DNA of 24,303 nt from Candidatus Methylomirabilota bacterium. Lineage in GTDB: Bacteria > Methylomirabilota > Methylomirabilia > Methylomirabilales > Methylomirabilaceae. Below are positions 204-17,627 of the stretch, piece by piece. A program made the position numbers and the translations under genes. The number at the start of each line of letters is the position of its first letter. The stretch's first letter is position 1. A model generated the notes under the pieces. That model was not told the origin of the DNA and ran no database searches. It saw only the letters and a program-made list of their open reading frames with translations. Location of the stretch: NCBI GenBank assembly GCA_003105305.1, contig PQAQ01000204.1, positions 1 through 24,303 of the forward strand, read 5' to 3'.

Positions 204-1268
204 CTACCGGCTGACGATCTTCCAGTTCAGGTCGGATACGGGAATCAGGTCACTTCCGCCGATCCAGTTCACTCCGTCCATGTACCAGATGATGTTGTAT
301 CCGGCCCCCGCGTTGTAGCGCCAGAGAATGTCTATTTGGCCGTCTTTATTGAAATCTCCCGTCCCCGCGATCTGCCAAGCCGCGTCACCGACAGAGATCA
401 AGCTCGCACTTCCGGTCCAGTCCACTCCGTCCATATACCATACGACGTTCGGACCTCCGGCCCCGTAGTATCGCCAGAGGATGTCAATGTTGCCGTCCTT
501 GTTGAAGTCTCCCGTCCCCGCGATCTTCCAGGTCGGATCCGAAACCCCGAGGACTGAAGCGCTTCCTATCCAATTGACGCCGTTCAGATACCAGACGACA
601 TTCGCGCCGGTCGAGCTATTGCGCCAGAGCACGTCCACATGGCTGTCCTTGTTGAAATCCCCCGTGCCCACGATCTGCCACGCCTGGTCCGCTACGGGGA
701 TCAAGTCGCTGCTCCCGATCCAAGTCGTCCCGTTCATATACCAAACCGCATTGGCACCGCTCGAGGCATTCCGCCAAAGGATATCGATAGATGCATCGTT
801 ATTGAAATCCCCCATACCCACGATCTGCCAGTTCAGGTCGGACACCGCCATCACATCCCCGCCGCCGGTCAATATCGGCGCTGCGGCCACCGGCCCGACA
901 AACACCGCGGCTTCAGAGCCGAGGGCATACATGGCATATCGGGGATCCGCAACGCCCATGCGCGGGGTCAGGATAGATCTGTTGCCCGCCATGCGGGGAT
1001 CGTCGACCACGGCCTCAACGAATCCGCCCATGATCCCCGGAACATCCGCTTTCGTCGCTTTGGTGATCAATCCGATCTCCCGTGGATCGGACAGGGCCGT
1101 CTTGCGACCTTCCGGCACGCGGGCATCCATCTTCGCTAATTCACTCCCGGCCGGCATTCCCACGGCTCCGACCGTGTTGCCCAGGAACCAGGCCCGGTTA
1201 TAGCCGCCGGCTCCATAGTAACGCCATAAGATGTCTTCCTCCCCGTCAGAATTGAGATCGACTTTTCT
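204..1268 (-). repeat. FG-GAP-like C-terminal module, copy 1 (S8 peptidase)
   Basis: Residues 1256-1609. A first unit (VDLNSDGEEDILWRYYG, NRAWFLGN) is followed by an insert at 1288-1390 with DPR at 1316, 1345 and 1363. Four units of about 50 residues follow, each opening W-Q/K-I-V/A-G-x-GDFN and continuing DILWR...VWYMNG, and a closing WKIVSR. The D-x-N-x-D-x-x-x-D loops resemble calcium-binding loops of integrin/VCBS-type propellers (family knowledge); metal binding is inferred. Confidence 0.85.
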
Positions 1269-4200
1269 GAGGTTGCCGGGGGAAATGATGCGGAAATAAT
1301 CCGAGACGCCGTACGGCTGTCCGTCGACCTCCCTGACGATGATCCGGCTCAAAATCGTTGGATGGGCCGGCACCGACCAAAGATAGCTCCCATCGTTGGG
1401 TGTCGACGGCTCGAAAACCGCCCACTGGACGCCGGTCTCGTACTCCAGAGAAACGTTCCCTACGGTTCCCGTTGACGTCCAAGTGATCTCAAAGGGCGAG
1501 CCGGCTTGAATGGAATCCCCTCCAGTCGGGCTCAGTATCGTGATCGTCGGCCTGGGCGTAACCGAGAAGACCCGATCGCTCGTATCCACCGGGCTCCCAT
1601 CGGTCTCACTGATCCGCACCAAGCAGTTTGCCGAGACCGTTTGAGGGGTCCAGGGGTATGCGCCGTCGTTCGCCGTATTCATGGCAAGAACCGCCCATGT
1701 CGATCCGCCATTGGTCGAATAATCGATGTTCACGTTCCCAACGCCCCCGGTGCTCGACCAGGTGATGGTCTGCGGGGAGTAGGCCTCCCAACTCTCCCCT
1801 CCGTTAGGGCTCGTCACCGTGATCGTGGGCACTACAGCGACGCCGATAGTGAACGTCGCGTTGCTAATGTCAAGAGGGCTTCCGTCGGTCGCATCGCTGA
1901 TCCTGATCAGGCACTGTGTCGATTCCACGCTCGGCACTGTCCAGTCGAATGTCCATGTCCCCGGGCCTGCAAGGCCCGCAACGTCTTGTCCCCCTTCAAG
2001 GACGGGGCCAGAGAGCTCGCGCCGGTCGTCCGTCATGAGGATGAGTGGACCCTCTGTCCCAAGGTCGACCGGGGATGCGCCTGAAGACGAAGGCGGCCAC
2101 GTTTGCGAGATTGACCGGCTGTTATTCCCTTCGTTCGTTTCGGCGACAACGCCATAATAGTCCGCTCGGGCGGTCAATGTATAGGTGCCCGGGATTATCG
2201 TCCCCGGGATCGTCAGGGGATAGCTTTCAGTATGGGCCCCGCCCACCCCTAGAGCCGGGATGCTAAAATCCTGGTAGGTCAGCGTCGTCGAACCTCTTCT
2301 TAGCGTCATCCTCAGCGTTGAAGCGCCGGCTCCGCTGGTCCCGCTATTGCGCACCGTCGAAGAAATCGTGATGCCAGTCTGCGTAAAGGAATAGGTCAGG
2401 CTCGAGACCACCAGATCCGGCAGATTGGGCAACACTGTCAGGCTCACGGGCCGCGTCACGCTCCCCACCCCGTTGGTCGCATTAGTGAAGGTCACAGAAG
2501 AAGTATAGGTCCCCTCGCCCAGGCTTGTCGCCGAGGGGGCGATCGAAACCGTTACGGACGAGCTGCCCCCTGCGGCCAAGATCCCACCCGCGGCCGAAAG
2601 CGTTGTCAGATCACCGGTGCCTGCCTCCCATTCCATAGGCCAGTTCCCGGCATTTTGGACGTTATAGATCTTGCTGGCTGGGGAGAACGGCCCTCCGACG
2701 GGCCCCGAGGAGGTCAGCCCGTCAGCGGGCGTCACAGAGAGAGCGGCACGTTGCTCGATGATGGTCGTCCAGGTCGATCCGTTGTTCGTCGAATATTCGA
2801 TCTTGACCGGCCCGCCGTGTCCCGTCCAGGTGATAGGATACGTCGTCCCGACGGTGAGATTCTCTCCACCGTTGGGGCTGACGACGTTGACAAATTCAGA
2901 GAAGCCATACCCGGCCAAAGAGAACCTCTGAGGGTGCAAGGGAATCGTCTTCGCGGTGACTGTGGCGGTCCAGGTGCCGGAAACGATACCGCTGTCCACA
3001 TAGACCTGTTCAACGTTGTTAAGGTGGTCCTCGGACGACCGTATCGCCGCGGCGGAGGGGTTGCCCGGATCTAGCGTCCAGGGATAGTAGACCGTCCCGT
3101 TGGGATCCTGGAGGACCAGGTCGAGGTCGTTGACCAGCGCGGGGGAGGCGTTCTCGGTAGCCGGGTAATCGTCCCACGCCAGGGTAACCTTGACGGATGG
3201 GGCGCCGGCCGGCACGGTAAAATGATAGCTGATCTCCCGGGGCCAATCCGCCCGATCCTGGTCGAGCTGTCCTTCGGTGAATGCCGAATTGTGCAGAAGC
3301 GACATAGCATCGTTTGTGCGGATCAATCCATAACCGGAGGCGTAGTCGGGCCCCTTATTGTACCAGGAGGTGGCGTCATCGAGGTCTTGGGCCGTTTGGA
3401 TGAGGGCGGCTTTTATGGTCGAGGCGAGGGGCGCCGGCGAAGCATGAACAGCGTAATAGTCTTGGAGGAGCAGGGCGATGGCTCCGGAAGTCGCAGCCGC
3501 CGCACTTGATGTCTGTCCGAACCATCCGTAGACATAACCGCTATCGAACCCGGGGGCTCTATATAACTGGCCATCCGCGTAACATGGGGCGTTGCCATAT
3601 CTGCTATTATCAAGAGGAATGCTCGACACGCCCGATAAGTTCAATCCATGGTGATGTCCAGAAGCGACGATTTCCGGTTTTATCCGTCCGTCGGTCGTCG
3701 GCCCCCAGCTGCTGTATGACGACATGCGGTTATCATATGAGTCAATCGCCCCGACGGTGATAATGTTCTTAGCTGACTTGGGATGGTTCATGGTCCCATA
3801 ATTAACATACGGAGCCGTCGTGCTATTTCCACACCGGTTTTGGTCTCTCTCATTGCCGGCGGAAAAGACGATGATCCGGGGCTTGACGCGGGGGGTTTGC
3901 CAGGAAAAGACCTGCTCGTCCAAGAAGGAACTGAGCCCCGCATAGTCTCCGTAGCCAAATTCTGCGCATCCGGACGTCCCCCAAGAGTTGTTCGCGATCT
4001 CGATATCGTGGGTGTTTATGGCGTCTGTAAGATCGTTGGAAAAATTCACGCGCATAGCCGCGTTATCGACGTCGTTATAATCGTAGGAATAGATCGCAAC
4101 GCCGGGCGACATCCCTCTCCATCTCTGAGCATATCCACACGGCTGAGCCGCACTTAGGGCACCGTCCCCCCCGGCCAATCCCGCCGTCATCGTAGGGTGT

Positions 4201-5033
4201 TGATAATAGTTGGTCGGTTGCCCTGGGGTGTCGGCGAGTGTAACTCGCCCGCTGAGATCGCCATGCGTGTTAAGCACATGTCCCCAATCAAACACCCCCA
4301 GACGGATCCCGGCTCCAGTGAATCCCGCCGACTGGGCGGGATCGACCTGGATGTGGGTCCGAACGCGGCTCGATTCCGGCTTGAAGGCTGAGCCGACGGG
4401 CTCGATCCAGCGGACCTCGTCATCGCTAGCGATCGCGTAGATCTGCCCGGGCGGCACGGTCACAAAGATGCTTTTGAGAGAGGCGGACGCGTTAATAACT
4501 TCGGCCCCGACGGCCTCCAGTCGGATCCTCAACGCCGCGGTATCCGCGTCGTCGAAGTGCTTGACCGCAAGCTCTATTTTGCCGTCTCTGACCAGTCGTT
4601 CATCGCCGTTGGCGGCTTCCCGTATGGAGGAATAGAGCTTGTCGTCCGGCAGGATGGGGCCGGCCCAGCGGACGCCTGACTGAATGAGACGATCTAAAGG
4701 GAAGCTGGAGGGAACGGAGGCGAACCAGCTCCGGTTCGGGATGTAGTCCAGGAGTCTGACGCCAAGTCCCACCAGGACCTCCCTGGCCGCCTTGTCGGGG
4801 ATCTCATTGAATTGCATGAGCACGTGCGATCTTGCCTGGCCCGGCGAGACCGCCAGGGCGGCAGGACTGATCGGGAGGCCGGCTTCAGGTATAAAGTGCC
4901 TCGACTTGAGCTTGATGACATACCGCTCGTCCGGCCCCTTTGGCTCTTGGTCATCGCCGATGGAGCCGCTGAAGAGCAATAGCAGCAGCATTAGCCCCGC
5001 CGAGCCGTGAAGAGTCCTCTTGCGCTTTGACAT
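204..5033 (-). CDS. Secreted subtilisin-like (S8) peptidase with KP-43-like jelly roll and FG-GAP C-terminal module
   Basis: A 1609-residue exported serine endopeptidase. The ATG at 5033 follows a strong GGGGGGAGGG ribosome site. A basic N-terminus and LMLLLLLF form the signal peptide; residues 35-225 look like a propeptide. The catalytic domain spans about 230-580, with likely triad Asp249 (GVFDWG), His279 (YYQHPTMTAG) and Ser509 (GQTSSAAAA), and oxyanion Asn394 (FSAGNE). The motifs around His and Ser differ from the canonical HGTHVAG and GTSMAAP, so activity is likely but unproven. Residues 590-710 match the KP-43-type beta-sandwich (VNDLDL). Next come a SPNGGE Ig-like half domain (716-761), a BACON-like domain (about 765-868), a CARDB domain (872-972), the other half of the Ig-like domain (1025-1065) and two more complete Ig-like domains to 1250. 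The shared FG-GAP module fills 1256-1609 and ends in WKIVSR. Confidence 0.93.
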   Translation of the reverse strand: MSKRKRTLHGSAGLMLLLLLFSGSIGDDQEPKGPDERYVIKLKSRHFIPEAGLPISPAALAVSPGQARSHVLMQFNEIPDKAAREVLVGLGVRLLDYIPNRSWFASVPSSFPLDRLIQSGVRWAGPILPDDKLYSSIREAANGDERLVRDGKIELAVKHFDDADTAALRIRLEAVGAEVINASASLKSIFVTVPPGQIYAIASDDEVRWIEPVGSAFKPESSRVRTHIQVDPAQSAGFTGAGIRLGVFDWGHVLNTHGDLSGRVTLADTPGQPTNYYQHPTMTAGLAGGDGALSAAQPCGYAQRWRGMSPGVAIYSYDYNDVDNAAMRVNFSNDLTDAINTHDIEIANNSWGTSGCAEFGYGDYAGLSSFLDEQVFSWQTPRVKPRIIVFSAGNERDQNRCGNSTTAPYVNYGTMNHPKSAKNIITVGAIDSYDNRMSSYSSWGPTTDGRIKPEIVASGHHHGLNLSGVSSIPLDNSRYGNAPCYADGQLYRAPGFDSGYVYGWFGQTSSAAAATSGAIALLLQDYYAVHASPAPLASTIKAALIQTAQDLDDATSWYNKGPDYASGYGLIRTNDAMSLLHNSAFTEGQLDQDRADWPREISYHFTVPAGAPSVKVTLAWDDYPATENASPALVNDLDLVLQDPNGTVYYPWTLDPGNPSAAAIRSSEDHLNNVEQVYVDSGIVSGTWTATVTAKTIPLHPQRFSLAGYGFSEFVNVVSPNGGENLTVGTTYPITWTGHGGPVKIEYSTNNGSTWTTIIEQRAALSVTPADGLTSSGPVGGPFSPASKIYNVQNAGNWPMEWEAGTGDLTTLSAAGGILAAGGSSSVTVSIAPSATSLGEGTYTSSVTFTNATNGVGSVTRPVSLTVLPNLPDLVVSSLTYSFTQTGITISSTVRNSGTSGAGASTLRMTLRRGSTTLTYQDFSIPALGVGGAHTESYPLTIPGTIIPGTYTLTARADYYGVVAETNEGNNSRSISQTWPPSSSGASPVDLGTEGPLILMTDDRRELSGPVLEGGQDVAGLAGPGTWTFDWTVPSVESTQCLIRISDATDGSPLDISNATFTIGVAVVPTITVTSPNGGESWEAYSPQTITWSSTGGVGNVNIDYSTNGGSTWAVLAMNTANDGAYPWTPQTVSANCLVRISETDGSPVDTSDRVFSVTPRPTITILSPTGGDSIQAGSPFEITWTSTGTVGNVSLEYETGVQWAVFEPSTPNDGSYLWSVPAHPTILSRIIVREVDGQPYGVSDYFRIISPGNLRKVDLNSDGEEDILWRYYGAGGYNRAWFLGNTVGAVGMPAGSELAKMDARVPEGRKTALSDPREIGLITKATKADVPGIMGGFVEAVVDDPRMAGNRSILTPRMGVADPRYAMYALGSEAAVFVGPVAAAPILTGGGDVMAVSDLNWQIVGMGDFNNDASIDILWRNASSGANAVWYMNGTTWIGSSDLIPVADQAWQIVGTGDFNKDSHVDVLWRNSSTGANVVWYLNGVNWIGSASVLGVSDPTWKIAGTGDFNKDGNIDILWRYYGAGGPNVVWYMDGVDWTGSASLISVGDAAWQIAGTGDFNKDGQIDILWRYNAGAGYNIIWYMDGVNWIGGSDLIPVSDLNWKIVSR

Positions 5034-5280: not shown

Positions 5281-5311
5281 TAGATTTTTTGGTGTCCTCT
5301 TTTCGGCTGGC

Positions 5312-5616: not shown

Positions 5617-6693
5617 CTAGCGGCTCACGATCCTCCAGGTCAGGTCCGGGACCGGCAGCAACTCGGCGCTCTCGGTCCAAGCTACCCCGTTCATGTACCA
5701 GATGACGTTGGTTCCGCCGGCGCCATTGTAGCGCCAGAGGATGTCGACGTTCCCGTCGTTGTCATAATCGCCCGTGCCTGCGATTTGCCAGGCCGCATTG
5801 CTTACTGGGATCAGCTCCGCGCTCCCGATCCAGGTCCCATTGTTCAAATACCAGACGACGTTGTAGCCGCCGGCTCCGTTGTAGCGCCAGAGGATATCGA
5901 CGTTCCCGTCCTTATTGAAGTCCCCGGTCCCCACGATCTGCCAGTTCTGATCAGACACGCCAAGAAGGACGGCGCTCCCGATCCACGTCGTCCCGTCCAG
6001 GTACCAGATGACATTCTCGCCGCTGGCGCTATTCCTCCATAGGATGTCGGCGTGCGTATCTTTGTTGAAGTCTCCCGTCCCTACGATCCGCCAATTCAAG
6101 TCAGCGACCGGGAGGAGCTCGGCGCTGCCGGCCCATTCTGTCCCGCTCATGAACCAGACGACGTTCGCACCGCTGGAGATATTCCGCCAGAGGATGTCGA
6201 CATAAGTATCATTATTGAAGTCCCCAGTCCCCACGATCTGCCAGTTCAGGTCGCCCACCGGCAGCACATCGCCCCCCCCCAAATAGCTGGGCGTCGAGGC
6301 CAGGTCCAGCTGTGCGCCGGAAGGTGTATCGGCCTTGACGTTAATTTTGACTTTCCTCGGATCGTCATAGCCCAAGGGAGGCGGTTCGGGGGCTACGCTG
6401 CCCGCCATGCGAGGATCGCTGATGCCAGCCTTGCCCAACGTGCGTCCTTGAGCCTTGCCCATGAGATCCCTAGGGCTCTTCGGGGCAAAATTCGCTTTCC
6501 GGTAAGGCACAAACCGTATTTCGCTCTCGCCCGGCCTGTTCCCGGCAAGATCCGCCTTTATTGGGAGCCCCCGCGGAGCCGCAGGCAGCTCCGGCTGGCC
6601 CGAGTCCCCGAGGAACCAGGCCCGATTAGACCCGCCAACACCGTAATACCTCCACAAGATGTCCTCCTGCCCGTCGCCGTTGAAATCAACCTT
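5617..6693 (-). repeat. FG-GAP-like C-terminal module, copy 2 (M6 peptidase)
   Basis: Residues 862-1219. First unit VDFNGDGQEDILWRYYG, then an insert at 891-998 with SPR at 934 and DPR at 954 and 972, then four units starting near 1011, 1061, 1111 and 1163 and a closing WRIVSR. The last unit is nearly the same as in copy 3, with a 37-bp exact DNA match (5639-5675 equals 9349-9385). Confidence 0.85.
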
Positions 6694-9276
6694 CGGAGAG
6701 GGGCGGAAGACCGCAACATCATCGATGTACCAATAATCATATTGGTAGAGGTTGCCGGTGATCGTAAAAGCGACAAACGTCGTCGAGATATTGAGATTAT
6801 GCGCGAGGGTGGTCACCACGGTTTCAGCCCCGATGTTCGAACTCGTCGTCGCGATCGACCAAGCTTCGTCCGTCCAAGTCGCTCTGTCGGGGCTCGTCTG
6901 GATCTTGAGCACGCACCCGGCGCCAAACGCGTCCAGGAAATGCTTAAAGCGCAAGCGCAGGGTCGCGTATCCGATCGTATTGAGAGGCGGGGTGATCAAT
7001 CTCGTTGTCCCGGGGTTGACGGAGTCCCATGAGCAAAGCACTTCGTAGGGTGAACCTCCCGCGTAGTTCGTCGCGCTGAAGCTCCACAGGTTTCCGATGC
7101 CGCTCCCGGAATTCTGTTGAACCCATCCCGAGGGGAGTACGGCAAAGTCCTCCGCGAATGGAATCGTAACCGGAAGGACCAAAGCGAAGTCGGCATCCGA
7201 TTCGTCCCATGCGGTCCCCTGCCCGACCCGGACCCGGAAATCGGACCCGGTCGTTTCACCAACGCCGATCACCCAAGGAAAAGTTCCGGCCGATGCACCG
7301 GCGGTCCCGAGGGTTCTCTGTTTGATCCCCCCTTTATAAAGGTCGATGGTCACCAATCCGGTCAGGCCCGTCTGGGTCCAAGTGATATCGTGACTTGAGC
7401 CCGCCGCCCAGATCTCCCCCCCATTCGGGGAGGTCACCGTGACCGGGGACGGAGGAATGATGATGGAGAAACTGGCATTGGAGATATCGAAGGGGACCCC
7501 AGCGGCCCCTTCCGCGACCCTGATGAGACAAGAACCGCTTGAAACGAGCGGGACCTGGATGGTCTCCGAGCCGTCGTTCGGCGTGTTGTCGGCGAGAGCC
7601 GTCCAAGTCGTTCCAGAATCCGTCGTCAGGAGGATGTCCACGGTGCTCATGCGTCCCGTGCTCAGCCAGGTGACAGTCGCGCTGTTCCCTGCGGTCCAGG
7701 TCTCACCGCCGTTCGGCGATGTCACCGTCAACGTGTTGATCGCGACATCAAACGAGATTGTGCCGCCATAGAAGCCGACGTTAGAGATCGACAAGCCTCC
7801 CGGCGACCCGTCGGTCAGGAAGCTCGAAGGATTCGTGACGTCGTTGATCTGGGTCCTCAACTGATTGGCCGAGAACGGGGCCAGCCCAGGCTCCCCGTCT
7901 AGGGTCGGGGTGCCGCTGGGACGGTAAATGTAAACTTCGTCCGGAGGGCCGTTGGCGTTTCCCGTGAGGGCCGTATTGATGCGATAGACCAGGAGCCCTT
8001 CGTTATAGAGGTTGCCCTCGAAGGTCCCCCCGCCCGTCTTCTTCCGGTATTCGACGACGAAGTACTCGGTCGAGGAGACGGGCGAAGCGATCTTGTAGCA
8101 ATTGTTCGTCGGGCTGGTCAGAGGATTGAGGGTGTACGTCCCGGACGCCGTGATCTCGGGGATGGCCGCGATCCAATGTCCGTACTTCCATTTCATATAG
8201 GCGCCCATATGCTCGGGAGGATCGAGGTTCCACTCCATGAGGTCCCAGGCCCAGACAGGCTGGAGGTACGAATAGCTTGAGTTGTAATGATAAAGGTCGG
8301 GCGCGCCCAGAGAGTGAAACATCTCGTGACAGAGGACGCCCACGCCCAACGACGTCTCCATCTGGAAATTATAGGTCCAGACGAGCTTGCCATTGATGTA
8401 GGCGTAGGGCGATGTATAGAGGGACCATTTGTGCGGCCAAAGGAGCGTGGACCAGGCCGTTGGCTCGCCCTTGACGACAAAGACGATGTTGTCGACATAC
8501 CCGTCCGAGTCGCCATCGATGTTCAGTCCCGCGGGCACTTCGGCGCTAATGGCGTTGACCGCGTTCCTGAGCAGCGCATGCTCCCGGTTCGCCCGTTCCA
8601 GTTGCCCGTTATAGCCCGTGGGATTCGTCGTTGCGTCATAGGGCATGTAATAGGCGCGGGGATAGGAATCTTGATAGGAAAAGACTCCGGGCATGGACCC
8701 GGGGTAGAAGGTCGAACCTATCGTCAGTTGGCTATACGAGACCTCGGTGAAGTAGTTCCTGAACGAGTTCGCTCCGGCAACCGCAGAACCGAAGGACTCC
8801 GCGGTGCCATCGATGAAGAGCTCCGTGAACTCCTCCTGGTCCGAGAACCGGATATAGACGACCAGGTTGTTGATCGTCCCAATCTGCGGGACATTGACGA
8901 TCGGCTCATTCGCGGCCGCCGCAACGCGCATCTCCCTCGTTTTTGGATCGTCAAGAACTTGTGCCCTTATCCCGGCCTGTTCGAGCGTCCGGGCATCGGT
9001 CCGGCCGGCGATGAATTCCGTCGGCACGAGCCTGCCGTCAACCTTGTCGGCATACACGAGGAAGCCTGTAGCCGGGTTCCGCAAGATCGTATAACCGTCC
9101 TTGTCATGAAGCCAGTTGTAGAATTCGTCGCCGCTGGCAAGACAGCTCAAGACGGTGCCATCCGGCTGTTTGACGTGCACGGGGATATTCCGTAAGTACG
9201 CGGCATCAACAACGCTGACGCATAGAAGAATGAAAGCCAGACTTGAATAGAAGCTGCTCAGCAACATACGCCGCAT
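5617..9276 (-). CDS. Secreted M6-family (immune inhibitor A-like) metallopeptidase with FG-GAP C-terminal module
   Basis: 1219 residues from the ATG at 9276, which sits behind GGGGAG. The frame is open further upstream, but that part overlaps the end of the C1 peptidase gene and lacks a signal peptide. Signal peptide 1-25 (LAFILLCVSVVDA). The propeptide, about 27-120, has the M6-type VKQPDGT and SGDEFYNW features. The catalytic domain spans about 130-370, with zinc motif HEMFHSLGAPD (His317, Glu318, His321) typical of M6. Residues 515-605 and 611-700 are SPNGGE Ig-like domains. Residues 704-857 form a choice-of-anchor J-type jelly roll (WYIDDV). The shared FG-GAP module fills 862-1219 and ends in WRIVSR. 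The start lies 50 bp after the C1 peptidase stop, so the two are probably one operon. Expected role: extracellular proteolysis. Confidence 0.93.
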   Translation of the reverse strand: MRRMLLSSFYSSLAFILLCVSVVDAAYLRNIPVHVKQPDGTVLSCLASGDEFYNWLHDKDGYTILRNPATGFLVYADKVDGRLVPTEFIAGRTDARTLEQAGIRAQVLDDPKTREMRVAAAANEPIVNVPQIGTINNLVVYIRFSDQEEFTELFIDGTAESFGSAVAGANSFRNYFTEVSYSQLTIGSTFYPGSMPGVFSYQDSYPRAYYMPYDATTNPTGYNGQLERANREHALLRNAVNAISAEVPAGLNIDGDSDGYVDNIVFVVKGEPTAWSTLLWPHKWSLYTSPYAYINGKLVWTYNFQMETSLGVGVLCHEMFHSLGAPDLYHYNSSYSYLQPVWAWDLMEWNLDPPEHMGAYMKWKYGHWIAAIPEITASGTYTLNPLTSPTNNCYKIASPVSSTEYFVVEYRKKTGGGTFEGNLYNEGLLVYRINTALTGNANGPPDEVYIYRPSGTPTLDGEPGLAPFSANQLRTQINDVTNPSSFLTDGSPGGLSISNVGFYGGTISFDVAINTLTVTSPNGGETWTAGNSATVTWLSTGRMSTVDILLTTDSGTTWTALADNTPNDGSETIQVPLVSSGSCLIRVAEGAAGVPFDISNASFSIIIPPSPVTVTSPNGGEIWAAGSSHDITWTQTGLTGLVTIDLYKGGIKQRTLGTAGASAGTFPWVIGVGETTGSDFRVRVGQGTAWDESDADFALVLPVTIPFAEDFAVLPSGWVQQNSGSGIGNLWSFSATNYAGGSPYEVLCSWDSVNPGTTRLITPPLNTIGYATLRLRFKHFLDAFGAGCVLKIQTSPDRATWTDEAWSIATTSSNIGAETVVTTLAHNLNISTTFVAFTITGNLYQYDYWYIDDVAVFRPSPKVDFNGDGQEDILWRYYGVGGSNRAWFLGDSGQPELPAAPRGLPIKADLAGNRPGESEIRFVPYRKANFAPKSPRDLMGKAQGRTLGKAGISDPRMAGSVAPEPPPLGYDDPRKVKINVKADTPSGAQLDLASTPSYLGGGDVLPVGDLNWQIVGTGDFNNDTYVDILWRNISSGANVVWFMSGTEWAGSAELLPVADLNWRIVGTGDFNKDTHADILWRNSASGENVIWYLDGTTWIGSAVLLGVSDQNWQIVGTGDFNKDGNVDILWRYNGAGGYNVVWYLNNGTWIGSAELIPVSNAAWQIAGTGDYDNDGNVDILWRYNGAGGTNVIWYMNGVAWTESAELLPVPDLTWRIVSR

Positions 9277-9326: not shown

Positions 9327-10436
9327 CTACCTGCTCACGATCTTCCATGTCAGGTCCGGGACCGGCAGCAACTCGGCGCTCTCGGCCCAGGCCACCCCGT
9401 TCATATACCAGATGACGTTGGTTCCTCCGGCGCCATTGTAGCGCCAGAGGATATCGATATTCCCGTCGCTGTTGTAATCCCCGGTCCCGACGATCTGCCA
9501 CGTCGGATCCCCTACCGGGATCAGTTCTGCGCTCCCGATCCATGACGCGTAGTTGAGATACCAGACTAAGTTGTAGCCGCCGGCTCCGTCGTAGCGCCAG
9601 AGGATGTCGGCACTCCCATCTTTATTGAAATCGCCCGTGCCCACGATCTGCCAGCTCGGGTCGGATACGCCGAGCAACACGGCACTCCCGATCCAATTCG
9701 TCCCGTTCATGTACCACACGACATTCGAACCACTGGACGCGTTCCGCCAGAGGATATCGATAAAAGTGTCGTTATTGAAATCCCCGGTCCCCACGATCTG
9801 CCAACTCAGATCGCTGACGGGGATGAGCTCGGCGCTCCCGATCCATTCCGCCCCGTTCATGTACCAGACGACGTTAGCGCCGCTTGAGATATTGCGCCAC
9901 AGAATATCGGCATGCGTGTCTTTGTTGAAGTCGCCCGTCCCTGCGATCTGCCAGTGCAGATCGCCGACCGGAAGCACGTCGGCGCCACCCAGGAAGGTTG
10001 CCGCTGCGGTCACACCGCCAATGGAATCACCCAGGGTGTCTGGATCGAGAGGGATCTTCGCATCTCTCGGATCAGCAATGCTCCCAAGAGAAGATCGAAC
10101 GATCCTTCCTCCCGCCTTCCGGGGATCGTCGACGGAGAACGGCCCTGACGATCCCCTCCTTACGTTTCCCATGACGTTCGGCGGAATCCTCGGCGAAGGG
10201 GTCTTCCTGGGATTCGAGATGATCCCCATTTTGCGCGTGTTCCCTGAGGAGGTTGCTGCGACTCGGGCACCGGAAGGTCGGGGGCCTTCAGGACCGGCCT
10301 CCATCGTAGCGCCGACGGCGGTCAACGGCCGCACCGCTCCCTCGGTGTTCCCGAGGAACCAGGCACGGTTGTAGCCTCCTGTGCCGTAATACCGCCACAG
10401 GATATCCTCCTGACTATCGTTGTTGAAATCGACTTT
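9327..10436 (-). repeat. FG-GAP-like C-terminal module, copy 3 (C1 peptidase)
   Basis: Residues 878-1246. First unit VDFNNDSQEDILWRYYG, then an insert at 908-1026 with NPR at 952, SPR at 958, DPR at 981 and 999. Four units follow, opening near 1038, 1088, 1138 and 1189, with a closing WKIVSR. The insert is closest to that of the LRR protein (both carry NVMG, DDPRKAGG and RSSL). Confidence 0.85.
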
Positions 10437-13067
10437 GGGAGAGAAAACCCTGGTAATGGAGACGTCATCGATATACCAATTGTCGAAATAATAGAGGTCG
10501 CCGATGATCACGAAGGCCACGAATGTCGTCTCGTCATTCAGGTTGTGTGTGATGATCGTGTCGATCGTCTCCGGGCCGATATCGACGGCGGTCGTCGTAG
10601 CCGTCCAGGCCTCATCGGTCCAGTTCATCCTGTCCGTGCTCGTCTGGATCCGCAACTGGGTGCCGCCGGTCTCCCATGCCCTCAGGAAATGCTTGAAGCG
10701 CAGACGCAGCTGGGAATATCCGATCGTGCTAATAGGCGGAGTAACCAATCGAGTCACGCCCGGAACGACATCCTCGAACGTACAGTTCATCTCATAGGCT
10801 TGGCCGCCCGCAAAGGTCGATGGAGATAGAACCCACCCATTATAGACACCCTCCCCGATGTTCTGTTGGACCCAGCCCACGGGGAATCCCGATGAGAGAA
10901 AGCTTTCAGTAAAAGGAATGCCAGAAGGTACGGTCACTAGGAATTGGGTCGACCAAGACGATATTGTTGCTGGCTCCAGCGCGCAGCGAGCCTGCGCCTT
11001 GACGGCCCGGATCCCAGGACTATTCCAGGTATGCGTGGCGGTCAGCTGCCCGACGGGCAGCCAATCGCTGCTCGTACCGTCCCCCCAGTCAAAACGATAC
11101 TGGACGTCATCTCCCGTAGAGCACTCGGAGCCGTCCGTGGCATAGATATGGGGAGCCCCAAGATCGGCCATGGTCTCTCCAGAAGGAGTCCGGGGGGCCG
11201 AGACGAAATGCAGCAAAGTGACGGCAGGGCCGCTGTAGGTCCCGGCAACTGGGAAATTCGCCGACTCTCCGCGACCGTCCTCAAAATGGAAACGGTACGC
11301 ATGGTTGCCCAACGATAAAGAACTGGCTTCATAAAGGTAATACCCTGCTTCCGGAACCCCGGATGTCAAGACCATGGGATAGGCGGTATCGTCGATGATG
11401 ACATTCTTGACCGTGGGCGCGTCCCCGTCAGCATCGGAATAGTAAGCGAAGAAATAAAAGGAGGTTCCGATTGGCCCCGCCAGGGGATTGACATAACCAT
11501 TGGTCACGACCGGCGCATGGTTAGCAGTCGGCCCGGAGTAAGTATAGGTGACATAAAGGCTTTCTGACTGGTTATCCAGGACCAGTTCACCACCCGCATA
11601 GCCGACCTCAGTTTGGTTAATCAGGTCCTTGATCTTGAATGTCCTGAGGGTGGCGGGATTTCCCGTCGTGCTGTCCGCCATCCGGAGATAGTAGTTCCGT
11701 GTGCTTCCCGTCGTCGACAGCAGATCGGTGGCGTCGAAAACGAACGTGCCGTCCACAGCTTCGCTCGTGCCATTGAATGCATAGGCGCCGCCTTGGTAGA
11801 AGATCGCCGCCGGGTTCCATATTTCTGTAGGCGATGTCGATGCGAGATCGGAGGTGCCCAGGCTCATCGCGAGCTGGCTTCTTCGCCCATGGTTGACCGT
11901 GAATTCCGCGACCATCGATGGGGAATACCCGACCCTGGGAGTCATGACGAAGGCGAGGTCCATCTGGAAGGCCGTTTCCCTTCCTTCCGATGGACCGTCG
12001 GGGACGGCCGATACGCTCCTAAGGGCGTCGTAGGCGAGCCAGATGAATCCGTTGTCCTGCCATGAACTGCCCCAGGAGTTGACGATCTTGAAAGCGCCCT
12101 TCTCGCCGGGATCGATGACCATATTCCCATTGACGTCGCTCCAGACCGCATCGTTATATCCGACGACGGTCATGGCATGGGAGCCCTGTTCACCATTGAC
12201 AAAATACCCGATGGCCTTTCCCACCTCGGAGTCATCGTCAGTTGTGGCGGGGTCGTCCATGATGATCTGCCCCTGCCAGGACATGATAAAAGTCCCGAAT
12301 ACCGGGATGTATCCGTTGGTCAGCAGTTCCTTGATCTGCTCAATTCCGGCGTCCGTGCCCGCATTATAGAGATACTGGAAGGGATAGGTCCTCGTGCTCA
12401 GGGCATTCTGCCAGGCCGAAGTGGTCAGGCACCAGGCACGATAATCGCCATCATAAGGGAATTCGGCCAAGGTCGCGGCCCCATGCTTTTCGAGGAGGTT
12501 GTAGGCATCGATCGCCTGCGTGCCTACGTTATCTCCGCCGTTGATCATATTGTATGTCCATTTGGGGGAATACACCGTGAGGACCTGCGGCTCACGCACT
12601 AAAGCCGACATATAGGAAAGCTGATAATAGGTGGTCGCGAAAGGCAGGCAGGAGTTCAATTCTCCCTGGTCCCCTATCGGGGGGAAAAAGGTCTGTGTGC
12701 TGTTATCGACGGAATCCGGAAGTTCACCCAACAGCTCCATATTCGGGAAGGTCGCCTGGATGGAGACCCCGGAACCTTCGATAGTACTCTCGAGTTCCTG
12801 TCCGATGGGCTTAACGAGGCTGGGTTTCAGGGCTTCCTTCCCCTGCTTGGCCCTATGCGCATTGATGCGCTCCAATCCCAGCCGATTGGCGTGGACCATC
12901 TTGACACGCGGCCAGTTATCTCTGATCGTCTTGAATTGCGCGGCATCGATGGGTTTGAGCCCGGTACGCTTCGAGCCATCGGCGATCTGCTTATCGGCGG
13001 ATAGGCCGGCCAAGGAGATGATCGACAATATCCCGAGAATTGCAGTAGCTTTCGAAACCTTGGCCAT
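9327..13067 (-). CDS. Secreted papain-like (C1) cysteine peptidase with PKD, jelly-roll and FG-GAP C-terminal module
   Basis: 1246 residues; the ATG at 13067 has a strong AAGGAG 7 nt upstream (13080-13075). Signal peptide 1-24 (ILGILSIISLAGLSA), then a propeptide to about 120. The C1 domain spans about 125-375: Gln134 and Cys140 in DQGELNSCLPFA, His297 in GSHAMTVVGYND, Asn330 in NSWGSSW. The residue after the nucleophile is Leu, not the usual Trp. Residues 376-510 are a beta-rich domain I do not recognise, 515-615 look Ig/cadherin-like, and 620-713 are PKD-like (FDWGDGTSSDW). Residues 717-872 are a choice-of-anchor J-type jelly roll very like the one in the neighbouring M6 protein. The shared FG-GAP module fills 878-1246. 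The gene likely heads an operon with M6. Expected role: extracellular cysteine endopeptidase; substrate unknown. Confidence 0.9.
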   Translation of the reverse strand: MAKVSKATAILGILSIISLAGLSADKQIADGSKRTGLKPIDAAQFKTIRDNWPRVKMVHANRLGLERINAHRAKQGKEALKPSLVKPIGQELESTIEGSGVSIQATFPNMELLGELPDSVDNSTQTFFPPIGDQGELNSCLPFATTYYQLSYMSALVREPQVLTVYSPKWTYNMINGGDNVGTQAIDAYNLLEKHGAATLAEFPYDGDYRAWCLTTSAWQNALSTRTYPFQYLYNAGTDAGIEQIKELLTNGYIPVFGTFIMSWQGQIIMDDPATTDDDSEVGKAIGYFVNGEQGSHAMTVVGYNDAVWSDVNGNMVIDPGEKGAFKIVNSWGSSWQDNGFIWLAYDALRSVSAVPDGPSEGRETAFQMDLAFVMTPRVGYSPSMVAEFTVNHGRRSQLAMSLGTSDLASTSPTEIWNPAAIFYQGGAYAFNGTSEAVDGTFVFDATDLLSTTGSTRNYYLRMADSTTGNPATLRTFKIKDLINQTEVGYAGGELVLDNQSESLYVTYTYSGPTANHAPVVTNGYVNPLAGPIGTSFYFFAYYSDADGDAPTVKNVIIDDTAYPMVLTSGVPEAGYYLYEASSLSLGNHAYRFHFEDGRGESANFPVAGTYSGPAVTLLHFVSAPRTPSGETMADLGAPHIYATDGSECSTGDDVQYRFDWGDGTSSDWLPVGQLTATHTWNSPGIRAVKAQARCALEPATISSWSTQFLVTVPSGIPFTESFLSSGFPVGWVQQNIGEGVYNGWVLSPSTFAGGQAYEMNCTFEDVVPGVTRLVTPPISTIGYSQLRLRFKHFLRAWETGGTQLRIQTSTDRMNWTDEAWTATTTAVDIGPETIDTIITHNLNDETTFVAFVIIGDLYYFDNWYIDDVSITRVFSPKVDFNNDSQEDILWRYYGTGGYNRAWFLGNTEGAVRPLTAVGATMEAGPEGPRPSGARVAATSSGNTRKMGIISNPRKTPSPRIPPNVMGNVRRGSSGPFSVDDPRKAGGRIVRSSLGSIADPRDAKIPLDPDTLGDSIGGVTAAATFLGGADVLPVGDLHWQIAGTGDFNKDTHADILWRNISSGANVVWYMNGAEWIGSAELIPVSDLSWQIVGTGDFNNDTFIDILWRNASSGSNVVWYMNGTNWIGSAVLLGVSDPSWQIVGTGDFNKDGSADILWRYDGAGGYNLVWYLNYASWIGSAELIPVGDPTWQIVGTGDYNSDGNIDILWRYNGAGGTNVIWYMNGVAWAESAELLPVPDLTWKIVSR

Positions 13068-13148
13068 CGTATTTCTCCTTAATCTACCCCGGATCGCATT
13101 TGTCCCTAAACCACTATATATAAATGAGATGGGTCAAGTAATGGGCCC

Positions 13149-13177
13149 AATATCGCACTTAATGACCATTTGTTCAA
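13149..13177 (-). promoter_or_regulatory. Candidate promoter for the C1-M6 peptidase operon
   Basis: The 152-bp gap upstream of the C1 gene is clearly AT-richer than its surroundings. On the minus strand TTGAAC (13177-13172), a 17-bp spacer and GATATT (13154-13149) form a moderate sigma70-like pair. A TATATATA run lies nearer the gene, after a TTGACC, but with poor spacing. Weak evidence. Confidence 0.3.
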
Positions 13178-13219
13178 GTCTTTATTATTGTCTCTATTTT
13201 AGTACCTGATATTATGGCG

Positions 13220-14329
13220 CTAATGATTGACGATCTTCCATGTCAGATCCGGAACCGGCGGCAACTCGGCGCTCTCGGCCCAATTCACCCCGTTCATGCA
13301 CCAGATGACGTTGTGTCCCCCCGCTCCGTCGTAGCGCCAGAGGATATCCACATTCCCGTCGTTGTTGTAATCCCCAGTTCCGACAATCCGCCACGTCGTA
13401 TCCTCTACCGGGATCAGTTCGGCGCTTCCGATCCAGGCCGCTTCCTGCATGTACCAGACGACATTAAATCCGCCGGCCCCTTCATAGCGCCATAGGATAT
13501 CGATACTCGTATCGTTATTGAAATCTCCCGTCCCGACGACCCTCCAATTCGGATCGGATACCCCGAGAAGCAGCGCGCTGCCGATCCACTCTGTCTCGTT
13601 CATGTACCAGACAACGTTCGAACCACTTGCGATATTGCGCCAAAGGATATCGACATGCGTGTCCTTGTTGAAGTCTCCGGTGCCGACAATCTGCCAGCTC
13701 AAGTCTGTCACGGGAAGGAGCTCCGCGCTTCCAGTCCACTCCGTCCCGTTCATGAACCACACGACGTCCGAGCCGGTGGCCATATTTCGCCAGAGGATAT
13801 CGATATGGTCGTCATTGTTGAAATCTCCAGTCCCCACGATCTGCCAGTTCAAGTCGCCCACGGGAAGCACGTCGGCGCCCCCTAGGAGACTCGGCGCTGC
13901 GGTCACTCCACCGGAAGCATCCCTTGGGGCCTCGGAATCGCAAACGACTATCACCTCTCGCGGATCGGCAGTGCTCATGAGAGAAGATCGGACGACCTTT
14001 CCTCCCGCCTTCCGCGGGTCATCAAATGAGGCCGGCCCCGGCGTTCGCCTGTTGCTATCGCCCATGACGTTCCGCGGAACCCTCTGCAAAGCGCCCTTCC
14101 TTGGATCTGAGATAACACCCATATCACGCAGGTTCCCGGATGATGTTGCCATGACCCGATTCCCGGCCCGCCTTCCGCCAGTAAGGCCGGCCTCCATCGG
14201 AGTGCTGACGGCTGTCAACGGCAGACCTGCTCCTACAGTGTTCCCGAGGAACCAAGCACGGTTGTAGCCGCCCTCGCCATAATACCGCCACAAAATGTCT
14301 TCCCGCCCGTCCCCGTTGAAATCGACTTT
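13220..14329 (-). repeat. FG-GAP-like C-terminal module, copy 4 (LRR protein)
   Basis: Last 369 residues of the frame. First unit VDFNGDGREDILWRYYG and NRAWFLGN, then an insert at 13886-14239 with three DPR motifs (frame residues 953, 982, 1000) and VPRNVMG, then four FG-GAP-like units and a closing WKIVNH. Confidence 0.85.
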
Positions 14330-16963
14330 CCTGGAGGGAGATGCCGACATGATGGCGAAGTCCGCGTTCGACTCGTCCGAGATGCCGCTTTGCCAGACGA
14401 GGACCCGATAGTCGGTCCCTGGCGTATCGCCAATTGCCCACGATAGGGTCCCGTCCGTAGAGGCGGCGGTCCCCAGTGTTCTCTGATAGACTCCACTTTT
14501 ATAGAGATCGATGGTCACGGAGCCAGTCAGACCCGTCTGCATCCAGGTGATGTTATGGGCCGAACCCGCCGCCCAGGCTTCGCCGCCGTTGGGCGAGACG
14601 ACCGTAATCGTCGGCACGATGACGGTCGCCGAATAATCCCGGTTCAGCTGGTCGGCTATAACGGAGGGGTAGGGCATGAAGGCTGGATTAAAAGCATAGC
14701 CCGCGAGAGTCGGGGTAGCTGTTCCCGACCATCCGGCGGGAACGACGACGTCATAGACGCCGGATCCGTTAGTTACCGGATTTCCAGGGAGCCCGGATAT
14801 CACCACGCCTGGCAGAGGCGATTCGCCCACCATGACGGCTCCCGAGATGTGGACGTTGATCTGAAGCCAAGCTATGGCTGAAACCTCGACGCTGAGCCCG
14901 CTCTCGACGACGTTCTGGTTGGCTGAGTGGGCCTCGGTGAGCGTCTGGACAACGAAGTAATAGGTCTCGCCCGGCGTCAAGCCGGTCACCTTGAAAGACG
15001 AGGAGGACTTGTCCGACGTGGTTCCTGCGAGCGTATAAGGGCCACTTGCAGTCTGCGAGCTATAGATCTCATAGTGGCCCGAGTTACCCGAATAGGCGAT
15101 CGGGATCCACGATATGAGTATGGCCCCCCCGTCCCGAGCAGTCGCCACGACGTTCGATGGCGCCACGGTCTGCGTCGCCGCCCAATCCGGATCCTTCGTG
15201 TTCAGGAAAGTGATCAGCGCTTCGTCTGAAGCGTATAGCGCGTTGTAGGCGAGGCTCGTCGAGGCCGGGTTAAGAGCGGTCAGGTTTGCCAAGGATGAGG
15301 GAATGGGACCGGCCAGCCTATTTCCATAGATACGCAGGATTGTCAGTTGGGTCAAATTGCCTAGCTCTGCCGGGATCGTCCCCTCAAGCAAGTTATCGTA
15401 GATAGAGAGGTCGACCAGCTGGGTCAGGGCCCCCAGCTCGGGCGGGATGGAACCACTGAGGTTGTTGGAATAAAGATGTAAGTATTTTAAGCTGTGAAGG
15501 TTCCCCAATGTCGTGGGGATAGGGCCGCTGAGCTCGTTGAGATGGATATATAGATACTGTAGGTTGGCCAGATCGCCCAGTTCCGGCGGAATCCCGCCGG
15601 AAAGCTGGTTACCGTGGAGTAAGAGTTGCCTCAGGGCCGTCAGGCTTCCGAGCTCCGGAGGGATCGAGCCGTTCAGTTCGTTGAATTCTAATAAAAGTGT
15701 CTTCAGAGCTGTCAATCCAGCGAAGGACACAGGAATTGTCCCGGTCAAGCTGTTGAATCGGAGATCCAAGTTGACGAGCTTGCTTAAGCTCCCCAATTCG
15801 GGGGGAAGTGAACCGTTCAGGTTATTGTTTCCGGCGATCAGATCAGTCAGCCTGGACAGATTTCCAAAACTCGCCGGGATAGGCCCGTTGAGTTGGTTGT
15901 TAGCGATACGGAGGAAGACCAGAGAGGAGAGATTCCCCCACTCCTCAGGAATCGCTCCGCTTAACTGGTTCGAATGCATCACCAGAGTCTCAAGGGCAGT
16001 CAGGTTGCCGAGACTCGCTGGGAGAAGTCCACTGAACTGATTGTCGTGCAGGTCGAGCGTTTTCAGGTTGACCAGGTTCCCCAATTCGGAAGGCAGGGAA
16101 CCGCTGAGATGATTGGTGTATAGCGACGCATATTGGAGGTCAGTTAAATTCCCCAAGCTCGCGGGGAGAGGGCCGCTGAACTGGTTATTGCAGAGATCGA
16201 GCGCCGTGAGCTTGGTCAGGTCGCCCAGCTCGGTTGGGAGCGATCCGGTGAGTTGATTCGCGGTGAGAAGAAGTCTGATCAGGTCCGTCAGGTTACCCAT
16301 GCTCGGAGGAAGAGAGCCGACGAGCCTGTTGGAACGGAGGTCCAGGACGGTCAGATAGGGAAGATCGCCGATCGCGGGGGGGAGACTCCCAACAAGATTA
16401 TTCGCCGCAAGGGTTATCGCCGTGATATTCCCCCCGTTCGAAGTGATGCCGTACCAGGTGCCTTCCGTGCCCGGCATAGCGAAGCCATCGGTATGAAGCG
16501 GCGGGGTTTTCCAGCCCCTATTTGTTGTCCAAGCATCGCCGTTCGTGGAGTTGTAGAAAGCGATCAAGGCCTGGCGCTCTGTCGCACTTGTCGTGAATGA
16601 TACCTCGTTGCCATAGACCGTATCCAGCGCATTGGCCGCGTACGCCCTGGCGTAGTAAGTGGTCGCACCCGCCAGTCCTGTCAACAAACCCGTGAACGCG
16701 CCGGTCGTGGACGCGGCGCCGGCATCGGTAAAGCTATCAGCGAGGGTCGGCGAGCCGGTGGTGTTCCAGACAAAGCCGTGGGCTGTTGGACTCGGCGACC
16801 CAAGGGCTGTGATATCTCCGTTACCCGTGGCCGTGACCGCGTTCACGGAGGTCGCCGCCTGGGTGGTCACGGCGGGGGCCACCGCGATAACTAAGTCAGG
16901 CGCCATGGCCGCCGAAACAACGCTGACGTTCCCGGCCCTGTCCCGCTGAACTGCGGTGATCAC
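13220..16963 (-). CDS. LRR protein with FN3, Ig-like and FG-GAP C-terminal module (3' part of a frameshifted gene)
   Basis: 1247 codons from a GTG at 16963; the frame really continues the upstream exported fragment, giving about 1468 residues if one G is removed. It opens mid-domain: ITAVQRDRAGNVS is the last strand of an Ig-like domain begun in the other frame. Then come an FN3-like domain (about 28-126), an LRR N-cap (ERQALIAFYNSTNGD, WYGIT), and 15 complete 24-residue plant-type LRRs with partial units at both ends (179-575). An FN3 domain (YYFVVQTL), a carboxypeptidase-regulatory-like domain and one SPNGGE Ig-like domain follow. The shared FG-GAP module starts at 879 and ends in WKIVNH, not the SR of the other three. 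Probable role: extracellular binding of protein or glycan. I see no catalytic domain. Confidence 0.85.
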   Translation of the reverse strand: MITAVQRDRAGNVSVVSAAMAPDLVIAVAPAVTTQAATSVNAVTATGNGDITALGSPSPTAHGFVWNTTGSPTLADSFTDAGAASTTGAFTGLLTGLAGATTYYARAYAANALDTVYGNEVSFTTSATERQALIAFYNSTNGDAWTTNRGWKTPPLHTDGFAMPGTEGTWYGITSNGGNITAITLAANNLVGSLPPAIGDLPYLTVLDLRSNRLVGSLPPSMGNLTDLIRLLLTANQLTGSLPTELGDLTKLTALDLCNNQFSGPLPASLGNLTDLQYASLYTNHLSGSLPSELGNLVNLKTLDLHDNQFSGLLPASLGNLTALETLVMHSNQLSGAIPEEWGNLSSLVFLRIANNQLNGPIPASFGNLSRLTDLIAGNNNLNGSLPPELGSLSKLVNLDLRFNSLTGTIPVSFAGLTALKTLLLEFNELNGSIPPELGSLTALRQLLLHGNQLSGGIPPELGDLANLQYLYIHLNELSGPIPTTLGNLHSLKYLHLYSNNLSGSIPPELGALTQLVDLSIYDNLLEGTIPAELGNLTQLTILRIYGNRLAGPIPSSLANLTALNPASTSLAYNALYASDEALITFLNTKDPDWAATQTVAPSNVVATARDGGAILISWIPIAYSGNSGHYEIYSSQTASGPYTLAGTTSDKSSSSFKVTGLTPGETYYFVVQTLTEAHSANQNVVESGLSVEVSAIAWLQINVHISGAVMVGESPLPGVVISGLPGNPVTNGSGVYDVVVPAGWSGTATPTLAGYAFNPAFMPYPSVIADQLNRDYSATVIVPTITVVSPNGGEAWAAGSAHNITWMQTGLTGSVTIDLYKSGVYQRTLGTAASTDGTLSWAIGDTPGTDYRVLVWQSGISDESNADFAIMSASPSRKVDFNGDGREDILWRYYGEGGYNRAWFLGNTVGAGLPLTAVSTPMEAGLTGGRRAGNRVMATSSGNLRDMGVISDPRKGALQRVPRNVMGDSNRRTPGPASFDDPRKAGGKVVRSSLMSTADPREVIVVCDSEAPRDASGGVTAAPSLLGGADVLPVGDLNWQIVGTGDFNNDDHIDILWRNMATGSDVVWFMNGTEWTGSAELLPVTDLSWQIVGTGDFNKDTHVDILWRNIASGSNVVWYMNETEWIGSALLLGVSDPNWRVVGTGDFNNDTSIDILWRYEGAGGFNVVWYMQEAAWIGSAELIPVEDTTWRIVGTGDYNNDGNVDILWRYDGAGGHNVIWCMNGVNWAESAELPPVPDLTWKIVNH
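15240..16429 (-). repeat. Leucine-rich repeat array (15 full 24-residue repeats)
   Basis: The 72-bp period encodes LGNLxxLxxLxLxxNxLSG followed by IP or LP, x2, with partial repeats at both ends. This is the plant-specific LRR consensus, which also occurs in bacterial secreted proteins (family knowledge). The repeats have diverged at DNA level, so this is an old array, not a fresh expansion. Confidence 0.9.
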
Positions 16964-17627
16964 CCCCCTCGCTCAACGGCATAGCGAGGCTGAGCGAGCA
17001 AGACTCGCTGCCTTCCGCAACTAACGTGGAGCCCAGGGCGCCTTCCACACTGCTGAAGATGGTCACGGTGGCGTCGGACTCGACACCAATGATGTCGAAT
17101 GCGGGCATCGTGATCCCGGTAACGTTGTCGGCACTCGAAGAGCCTGAGTCGCTCGAAGCCTGAAGGTCTGGCGCTTGCGGAGGCGCGGGCGCCGCGGTAT
17201 CGATCACGATCTGTTTGTTCGCGCCGAGCGATCCGGCCGTCCCGGGAATCGGCAGGGATAGAGTCGCGTCTTCGCCCGCTCCATTCTTGATCGTCCCACC
17301 TTTCAATTGCAGAGGATCTGTGCTGACGTAGTCCAGGTCCGAGGCGGTGTGGCCAGCGGCCACCGTATAAAAGAACAGCAGCGTCGTAGTCCCGCTGCCG
17401 GAAGCATAGTCGACGACGGCGTTCGGGGTTCCGGTCTCCAGTTTGATCTGCGGGGTCCCCGTGACAAATATGATTTCATCGAATGTCACTTGGATGGCGA
17501 TGACGTCGCCTGCCTTATAGAATCCGTCTGCTGTAGCCGAAGTGATATTGATCGGAACTGCCCCCTGCAATGAGGCCCCCATAAAAGCCAAGACAAATAA
17601 TGAGAGTGTCAGCTTGGCGGTTCTCAT
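16896..17627 (-). CDS. Exported Ig-like N-terminal part of the LRR protein (frame broken at a G6 tract)
   Basis: The ATG at 17627 starts a signal peptide (LTLSLFVLAFMGASLQG). Residues 26-144 form an Ig-like domain of the type with VTFDE, TGTPQ, LETG and GANKQIVIDT. Residues 148-221 begin a second Ig-like domain (SDSGSSSADNVTG, ATVTIFSSVEG). At the run of six C on the plus strand (16963-16968) the frame leaves the domain: residues after Gly221 (GDHRSSAGQGRERQRCF) are out-of-frame, and the frame ends at 16896. With five G the sequence reads LSEGVITAVQRDRAGNVS, a normal Ig strand joined to the LRR frame. The ribosome site is weak (GGTGG). Either a sequence error, a disrupted gene or a phase-variable tract. 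Confidence 0.8.
   Translation of the reverse strand: MRTAKLTLSLFVLAFMGASLQGAVPINITSATADGFYKAGDVIAIQVTFDEIIFVTGTPQIKLETGTPNAVVDYASGSGTTTLLFFYTVAAGHTASDLDYVSTDPLQLKGGTIKNGAGEDATLSLPIPGTAGSLGANKQIVIDTAAPAPPQAPDLQASSDSGSSSADNVTGITMPAFDIIGVESDATVTIFSSVEGALGSTLVAEGSESCSLSLAMPLSEGGDHRSSAGQGRERQRCFGGHGA

Follow-up and report, generated by a model that had tools for sequence, protein, structure and literature searches.

What could a subtilase, a metalloprotease, a papain-like protease and a leucine-rich repeat (LRR) protein have in common that all four should end in the same sequence? The question is raised by a stretch of 24,303 nucleotides (hereafter the window), positions 1 to 24,303 of contig PQAQ01000204.1 in the Candidatus Methylomirabilota assembly GCA_003105305.1, in which four minus-strand genes each close with a module of about 355-370 residues. 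The modules of the S8 (204..1268), M6 (5617..6693), C1 (9327..10436) and LRR (13220..14329) proteins all run to a stop codon and keep one internal order, as had been stated in an earlier reading of the window made without database searches (the sequence-only reading). That the module is genuinely shared was likewise borne out, since identity to the C1 copy reaches 72% for the LRR protein, 63% for M6 and 59% for S8, far beyond chance. We propose, with a probability of about 0.5 for the whole chain, that it is a five-bladed VCBS/FG-GAP propeller with an inserted arm, and that it would retain exported proteins at the surface of the producing cell through one of the cell's own glycans.

The module consists of five FG-GAP/VCBS units of about 50 residues each; an insert splits the first of them behind the third expected strand, and it is very probable from this repeat pattern that the five units form a ring. 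Pfam families FG-GAP_3 and FG-GAP exceed their cut-offs in all four window proteins, and the Asp-rich D-x-D-x-D-G-type loop of this family, between strands A and B, is present by a loose pattern; strands were assigned from the published blade pattern, as given in the available extract of PMC8023676, and not from a model. The sequence-only reading had described one unit, an insert and four units, an order which is indeed present but which is better expressed as five units with the first interrupted. These features were followed in 87 distinct proteins with the insert, which remained of 92 once 5 duplicates had been dropped and which were drawn from the best 120 of 3379 passing matches (8000 candidates scored), from 61 further listed matches, from the contigs of the genome bin and from the Acidobacteria metagenome-assembled genome RA.bin134; left out were 3 of the 40 proteins new in a second search, two of these three having the first unit and no more.

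Four more units follow the insert in 83 of the 87 proteins, and with the loose pattern 5 or 6 Asp loops per module were counted in 71, 4 in 13 and 2-3 in 3. The motif W-x-[IV] before the Asp loop occurs in the first unit of 1 of the 87 proteins and in all 316 internal units picked by pattern (about 348 expected), and of the 79 proteins ending no more than 6 residues from their last unit, 78 have it within the last 12 residues. Because the first unit is without the W-x-[IV] half-strand and the C-terminus has it, the two ends would complete each other within one strand. The ending W-[KR]-[IV]-x-S-R is as constant as the sequence-only reading held in speaking of a fixed C-terminus, but it is best read as the Velcro closure of a five-bladed ring. 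In 79 homologues without the insert, taken from the best 120 of 3379, there are 10 units in 40, 12 in 16, 15 in 7, 5 in 5 and other numbers in 11, and because of these counts rings of five, and elsewhere perhaps of six, are likely. A seven-bladed integrin-type propeller was ruled out by the count of five units. Chains of PLL/PHL lectin propellers were absent among the PDB matches of both module profiles up to E=1.

The insert, which we call the arm, interrupts blade 1 at one fixed place in the ring and comprises about 110 residues (87-153 across the proteins, a span that may take in some of the strand that follows). In the window it occupies 870..1172 of the S8 module, where it holds three DPR motifs and its limits are approximate and trimmed by eye, 6283..6606 of the M6 module, 10002..10340 of the C1 module and, with approximate limits, 13883..14236 of the LRR module. 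At least one DPR is found in 58 of the 87 proteins and at least two in 53, the last two being exactly 18 residues apart in 37 of these 53, and the 57 inserts typed as A by pattern contain 120 DPR, where 200 shuffles gave 2.7 on average and 8 at most. A second kind of arm mostly has no DPR, and in it motifs such as LKPKQVMRDPMD were seen repeatedly, as judged by eye; short internal repeats such as SPMDVGN were also seen in arms of this kind (P0151, P0153, P0169).

Over 900 random pairs of the 87 proteins, identity averages 58% in the ring and 25% in the insert (first 95 residues), where shuffled inserts give a mean of 21% and a maximum of 33% (200 shuffles). In 16 pairs chosen for similar rings the contrast ran from slight (the L016 pair, ring 98%, insert 92%) to extreme, as in P0145 and P0148, which probably share one contig and whose rings are 98% identical, with 33% identity in the insert (equal to the shuffle maximum) and 24% in the 250 residues before the module. 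Near-identical rings with divergent arms and heads suggest that rings move among heads and that arms change fast, with few points fixed, and the P0145/P0148 pattern fits a spread of the ring, or gene conversion, while arms diversify. The mean charge of the inserts (+3.4 and +2.6 for the two types) differs from that of the rings (about -20), a contrast which is suggestive only. Concerted evolution of rings by genome was considered as a sign of a shared partner and gave no clear signal in the 57 type-A rings: mean identity is 68.5% between rings of different heads within one contig or genome (50 pairs, 35 of these in the bin), 68.1% where the head is the same and the contigs differ (145 pairs) and 64.0% in the remaining 1379 pairs.

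The module ends within 6 residues of the protein end in 79 of the 87 proteins, in one of them only through a contig end. P0080 ends in WRIVSR with its last unit not joined to the detected run, and 15-18 residues lie beyond the module in P0021, P0101 and P0122, P0101 being apparently frame-broken. In 4 of the 87 proteins (P0051, P0054, P0065, P0066) the module lies near the N-terminus, with 599-796 residues behind it and, in three of the four, a signal-like start before it. These four and the three proteins with trailing residues are a minority, but they are the sort of finding that the sequence-only reading had named as refuting. The supposition that the module is borne mainly by exported proteins held up: by a simple rule, 48 of 69 insert-bearing database proteins with an initial Met have a signal-like start (9 without Met were excluded), and many of the 21 without such a start begin inside a domain and look truncated at the N-terminus. 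Heads in the database include multicopper oxidases, and LRR, SBBP and immunoglobulin-like (Ig) heads also carry the module.

What such a ring might do is best indicated by the C1 head family. With the C1 head, deprived of its module, as the query, 274 of 8000 scored candidates passed and the best 120 were examined, and the counts that follow refer to the 63 listed homologues that cover at least 63% of the query, the window's own protein included. The end slot is filled by an insert-bearing ring in 17 of these 63 (among them P0163, with three units), by a ring cut inside its insert in one (P0162), by a PLL/PHL-type lectin propeller in three (P0161, P0164, P0165), by another VCBS-like propeller in one (P0166, by eye and from precomputed Pfam), and by choice-of-anchor-Z repeats together with the NCBIfam putative anchor lipo-invert in 41 (41 of 41 scanned). 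P0162 stops inside its insert though it lies on a 310 kb contig. The head of P0161 is 73% identical to that of the window protein and its tail finds the PHL lectin 5mxe_A with E=2e-34; P0164 and P0165, which have the precomputed family PF26607 in common, were assigned with a repeat model derived from these two and P0161. Among more distant listed homologues, P0236 and P0264 pass the sorting-domain model of the type IX secretion system (T9SS), P0249 has a Pfam T9SS tail (precomputed), P0216 has PLL-like repeats, and many of the rest have PKD, fn3 or undefined tails. Names of the 'choice-of-anchor' type mark heads with alternative anchors. Since putative anchors and lectin-type rings fill the same slot, this swap is the best evidence that the FG-GAP ring has a related job, and in this one head family the module stands where an anchor may stand. 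Among relatives of the bin, 0/60 were over the cut-off for lipo-invert, with 8 weak matches.

In the mechanism we propose, the protein would be exported via its signal peptide and the ring would fold, its Asp loops perhaps holding Ca2+; each blade has about one such loop, of the metal-binding type D-x-[ND]-x-[DN]. The last residues would provide the opening half of blade 1's innermost strand and so close the ring, with the arm inserted between the third and fourth strands of that blade. The ring would then bind a glycan of the producer's surface or matrix, whereby enzymes and binding proteins would be kept at the cell, and the arm, being variable between proteins, would probably add a second, protein-specific contact. 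Retention is in our judgement the best reading of the module, and a glycan is favoured over a protein as its partner. The surface retention or docking put forward by the sequence-only reading survives in part, in that retention is a fair reading given the slot swap in one head family, but the analogy with T9SS C-terminal domains, dockerins and PEP-CTERM fails in mechanism, the module being by its sequence a self-closing VCBS/FG-GAP propeller. Among the matches of the window proteins there was no dockerin or PEP-CTERM family (Pfam, E<=0.01), nor were the T9SS profiles PF18962 and TIGR04183 among their Pfam and NCBIfam matches. A bolder version, in which the common ring would attach to one polysaccharide and the fast-changing arm to a neighbour or target particular to each enzyme, giving a matrix-bound enzyme assembly without a scaffold, we regard as doubtful.

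Several observations weigh against retention by a glycan-binding ring. P0163 has three units, and a few other proteins have fewer than five detected, some of them cut or apparently frame-broken; a solved relative, CRTAC1 (9etn_A), was matched weakly, at E=3e-4, or 0.11 with a narrower profile. The slot swap covers one head family, and the same evidence is compatible with the binding of external glycans. Sugar genes lie near an insert-bearing cluster in two instances, the window and RA.bin134, which is a small sample. In RA.bin134 a polysaccharide locus with a hexapeptide transferase, a Wzx-type flippase and glycosyltransferases (Wzy_C below cut-off) starts some 4 kb past the last module gene, and no match to gmd was obtained there at the cut-off used. 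A general link with sugar genes was rejected for want of enrichment (4 of 78 loci, with 5 open reading frames over 1009 kb; in the control, 1 of 20 contigs, over 119 kb), in a rough search in which nearly all of the 78 loci are without the insert and three of the 20 control contigs were masked. The sugar-gene context is accordingly a lead and not a result.

The ring might alternatively be a lectin-like propeller for external glycans or glycoproteins that brings enzymes to their food. A lectin-type propeller does fill the same slot, and proteases and, in the database, multicopper oxidases are among the heads; but a putative cell anchor occupies that slot in 41 of the 63 listed homologues, distant homologues carry a T9SS sorting domain, and the module is also found on heads without an obvious substrate (LRR, SBBP, Ig), so that we judge such targeting unlikely, while taking it seriously. 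Docking, in which a cohesin-like protein partner common to all would gather the enzymes, accords with the many heads that share one module, with the clustering of the genes and with the DPR motifs and their 18-residue spacing. However, the near-random identity of arms between many proteins and the mostly DPR-free second class make a poor fit to a single shared receptor, ring identity is without clear within-genome co-evolution, and no candidate partner gene was found in the two neighbourhoods examined, no systematic or unbiased partner search having been made; on balance a common protein receptor seems improbable.

Rings that move between heads, and inserts that diverge to near-random identity, could also reflect a repeat domain that has spread in a largely neutral way and serves no common function. 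We consider this very improbable, as the DPR motifs and their spacing are kept, the insert has a single position in the ring, and the slot's other occupants are anchors or lectin-type domains. Least probable of all is a C-terminal sorting or secretion signal akin to that of the T9SS, to which the terminal position in 79 of the 87 proteins (one only by a contig end) might point. Here the existence of N-terminal copies, the ring closure, which accounts for the terminal residues, and the absence of PF18962 from the bin, in a search whose control was weak (a match in 1 of 14 control genomes, under the cut-off), ruled out T9SS-type sorting as the principal explanation. SprA_N gave no match in 6 genomes, and its control was equally silent.

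Should retention by an own-glycan-binding ring prove correct, it would point to a means by which uncultured polymer-degraders hold their enzymes at the cell with neither a cellulosome-like scaffold nor a T9SS. Exported proteins of bacteria commonly bear VCBS/FG-GAP domains, which frequently go under no better name than 'repeat protein'; following one head family, whose slot is occupied now by an FG-GAP ring, now by a ring of lectin type and now by putative membrane anchors, suggests a specific, testable function for one such domain, and the inserted arm offers both a marker by which the system can be tracked and a defined object to test.

A profile search of the source genome bin yielded 10 module matches on three contigs, namely the window's own contig C204 (4), C9 (4, of which three are matches and one is a 23-residue fragment at the contig end) and C77 (2, one cut by the contig end at 319 of 369 residues). 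The heads listed on C9 and C77 are SBBP propellers, a choice-of-anchor-J-like plus BACON head, a contig-cut PKD-like head and one further head. C9 and C77 each end inside a module, so that the assembly breaks at these repeats. The choice-of-anchor-J-like stretch of the C1 protein matches six places in the C9:4524 protein (L009:6321-9809), for which NCBIfam listed no family. Two further FG-GAP_3 matches lie in the bin, L141 (C245:6997-7176) and L142 (C90:1993-2166), on contigs where the module profile was silent. A module lineage ending in WKLVPGCRIW was seen at L010:2214-3320 and, with SBBP heads, in P0044 and P0064; its rings are 87-92% and its arms 26-35% identical. At the left edge of C77, an open reading frame (L010:1-1000) matches the tail of P0051 (48% over 328 residues), and the bin may also have a protein with an N-terminal module, which would lie off the contig. 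Outside the bin, relatives with the module were found in Candidatus Aminicenantes (P0124) and in RA.bin134, which has five module genes on one contig across about 29 kb; among 78 loci of a one-genome-per-species collection, a long gap after unit 1 occurs in RA.bin134 only (2 loci, 5 proteins).

The contig that holds the window may be misbinned or laterally gained. The 94 other genomes of the bin's phylum (95 with the bin) gave no full-length module match and one partial match (G071), the C1 head was absent from the 13 other genomes searched, and a DUF218-like neighbour is only 28-35% identical to proteins of the genus. In composition, the 6.7 kb flanking the modules resembles the bin (0.548) no more closely than it does RA.bin134 (0.536) or an Aminicenantes locus (0.550), whereas all of 10 contigs of the bin itself resemble the bin more than they do the outsiders. 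For the other module-bearing contigs composition favours membership of the bin, with 0.41 to the bin against 0.34 and 0.32 to outsiders for C9, and 0.55 against 0.43 and 0.37 for C77. The gmd gene is 66-68% identical to that of 8 of 14 same-genus genomes, but gmd is that similar even between distant phyla, and this identity was dropped as a sign of membership. Given possible misbinning or lateral gain, searches of the bin's supposed relatives are weak evidence on the biology of the module.

All four module genes are on the minus strand. The S8 protein (204..5033) has CARDB and Ig-like domains, and the C1 protease (9327..13067) has PKD-like and choice-of-anchor-J-like domains; Peptidase_S8 and Peptidase_C1 are over the Pfam cut-offs, and LRR families were also matched. 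The M6-type metalloprotease (5617..9276) passes NCBIfam TIGR03296 yet falls below the Pfam M6 cut-off; its start at 9276, chosen for the signal-like beginning that it gives, lies 50 nt from the C1 stop. The LRR protein (13220..16963), with fn3 and Ig-like domains, has its N-terminus in another frame: an open reading frame at 16896..17627 on the same strand, with a signal-like start and part of a Big_13 domain, is probably the N-terminal part of the gene, which is apparently split by a frame change at 16896-16963, the Big_13 domain extending across both frames. This change may be an assembly error or real. Contrary to the sequence-only reading, the heads do have domains in common. A choice-of-anchor-J-like domain stands just before the module in the M6 (6709..7158; NF038128, 26.8 bits) and C1 (10455..10913; 29.6 bits) proteins, both scores lying below the cut-off of 30, and a Kre9/KNH-like Ig domain is shared by S8, M6 and LRR, over the cut-off in the first two and below it in LRR. 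Beside the cluster, and of interest as context only, are minus-strand nucleotide-sugar genes (18063..21139), comprising gmd (511.7 bits, cut-off 415), a GDP-L-fucose synthase-like gene (285.8 bits, below the cut-off of 500) and a sugar-nucleotide epimerase-like gene. An open-ended plus-strand gene (22090-24303) encodes NHL and SdiA-regulated-type repeats followed by CARDB (Pfam) and is weakly ScyF-like (37 bits, cut-off 350).

FG-GAP/VCBS propellers are well described in print (PMC8023676, PMC9218822 and PMC3192720, from the extracts available), and the term 'uncharacterised' used in the sequence-only reading applies, as far as the literature was searched, to the insert-bearing variant. No description of this five-unit form was found in the literature searched, most subscription journals lying outside it and the papers that came up being general ones on propellers, lectins and matrices, and in that literature nothing joined Aminicenantes with FG-GAP or dealt with lipo-invert or choice-of-anchor Z. 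The module has the same unit sequence and Asp-rich loop as VCBS/FG-GAP propellers (PF13517, PF01839), which the PMC8023676 extract describes as secreted and often accompanied by Ig-like domains. It differs from the integrin, PVL and TcB types, which according to that extract have seven units, in having five and in its arm of about 110 residues in blade 1. PLL/PHL lectin propellers are found in that slot behind a C1 head of 73% identity but have a different repeat and, by this evidence, do not belong to the same family. Tachylectin-2 is likewise a five-bladed, Velcro-closed lectin (PMC4735018, in the part available), but tachylectin-like propellers are without the Asp motif in the extract of PMC8023676, and the module, with five units and that motif, does not fall in the tachylectin-2 family. 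Choice-of-anchor proteins with a lipo-invert tail (NF058595, NF058597) or a T9SS domain (TIGR04183) share head family and slot with the C1 protein; lipo-invert tails show, by eye, a hydrophobic stretch and a Cys, whereas the module end has no such stretch, and the T9SS sorting domain is strictly C-terminal, which the module is not (4 of 87 N-terminal, 3 with 15-18 trailing residues). The nearest working precedent is offered by Bap1 and RbmC of Vibrio cholerae, whose Velcro-closed propeller binds the matrix exopolysaccharide and holds proteins to the producer's own matrix, and which, with its Velcro segment deleted, is secreted yet defective in adhesion (PMC10102183, in the part available). That propeller has eight blades and sits on adhesins; the module could represent a five-bladed, arm-bearing counterpart by which degradative enzymes and binding proteins are kept at the cell.

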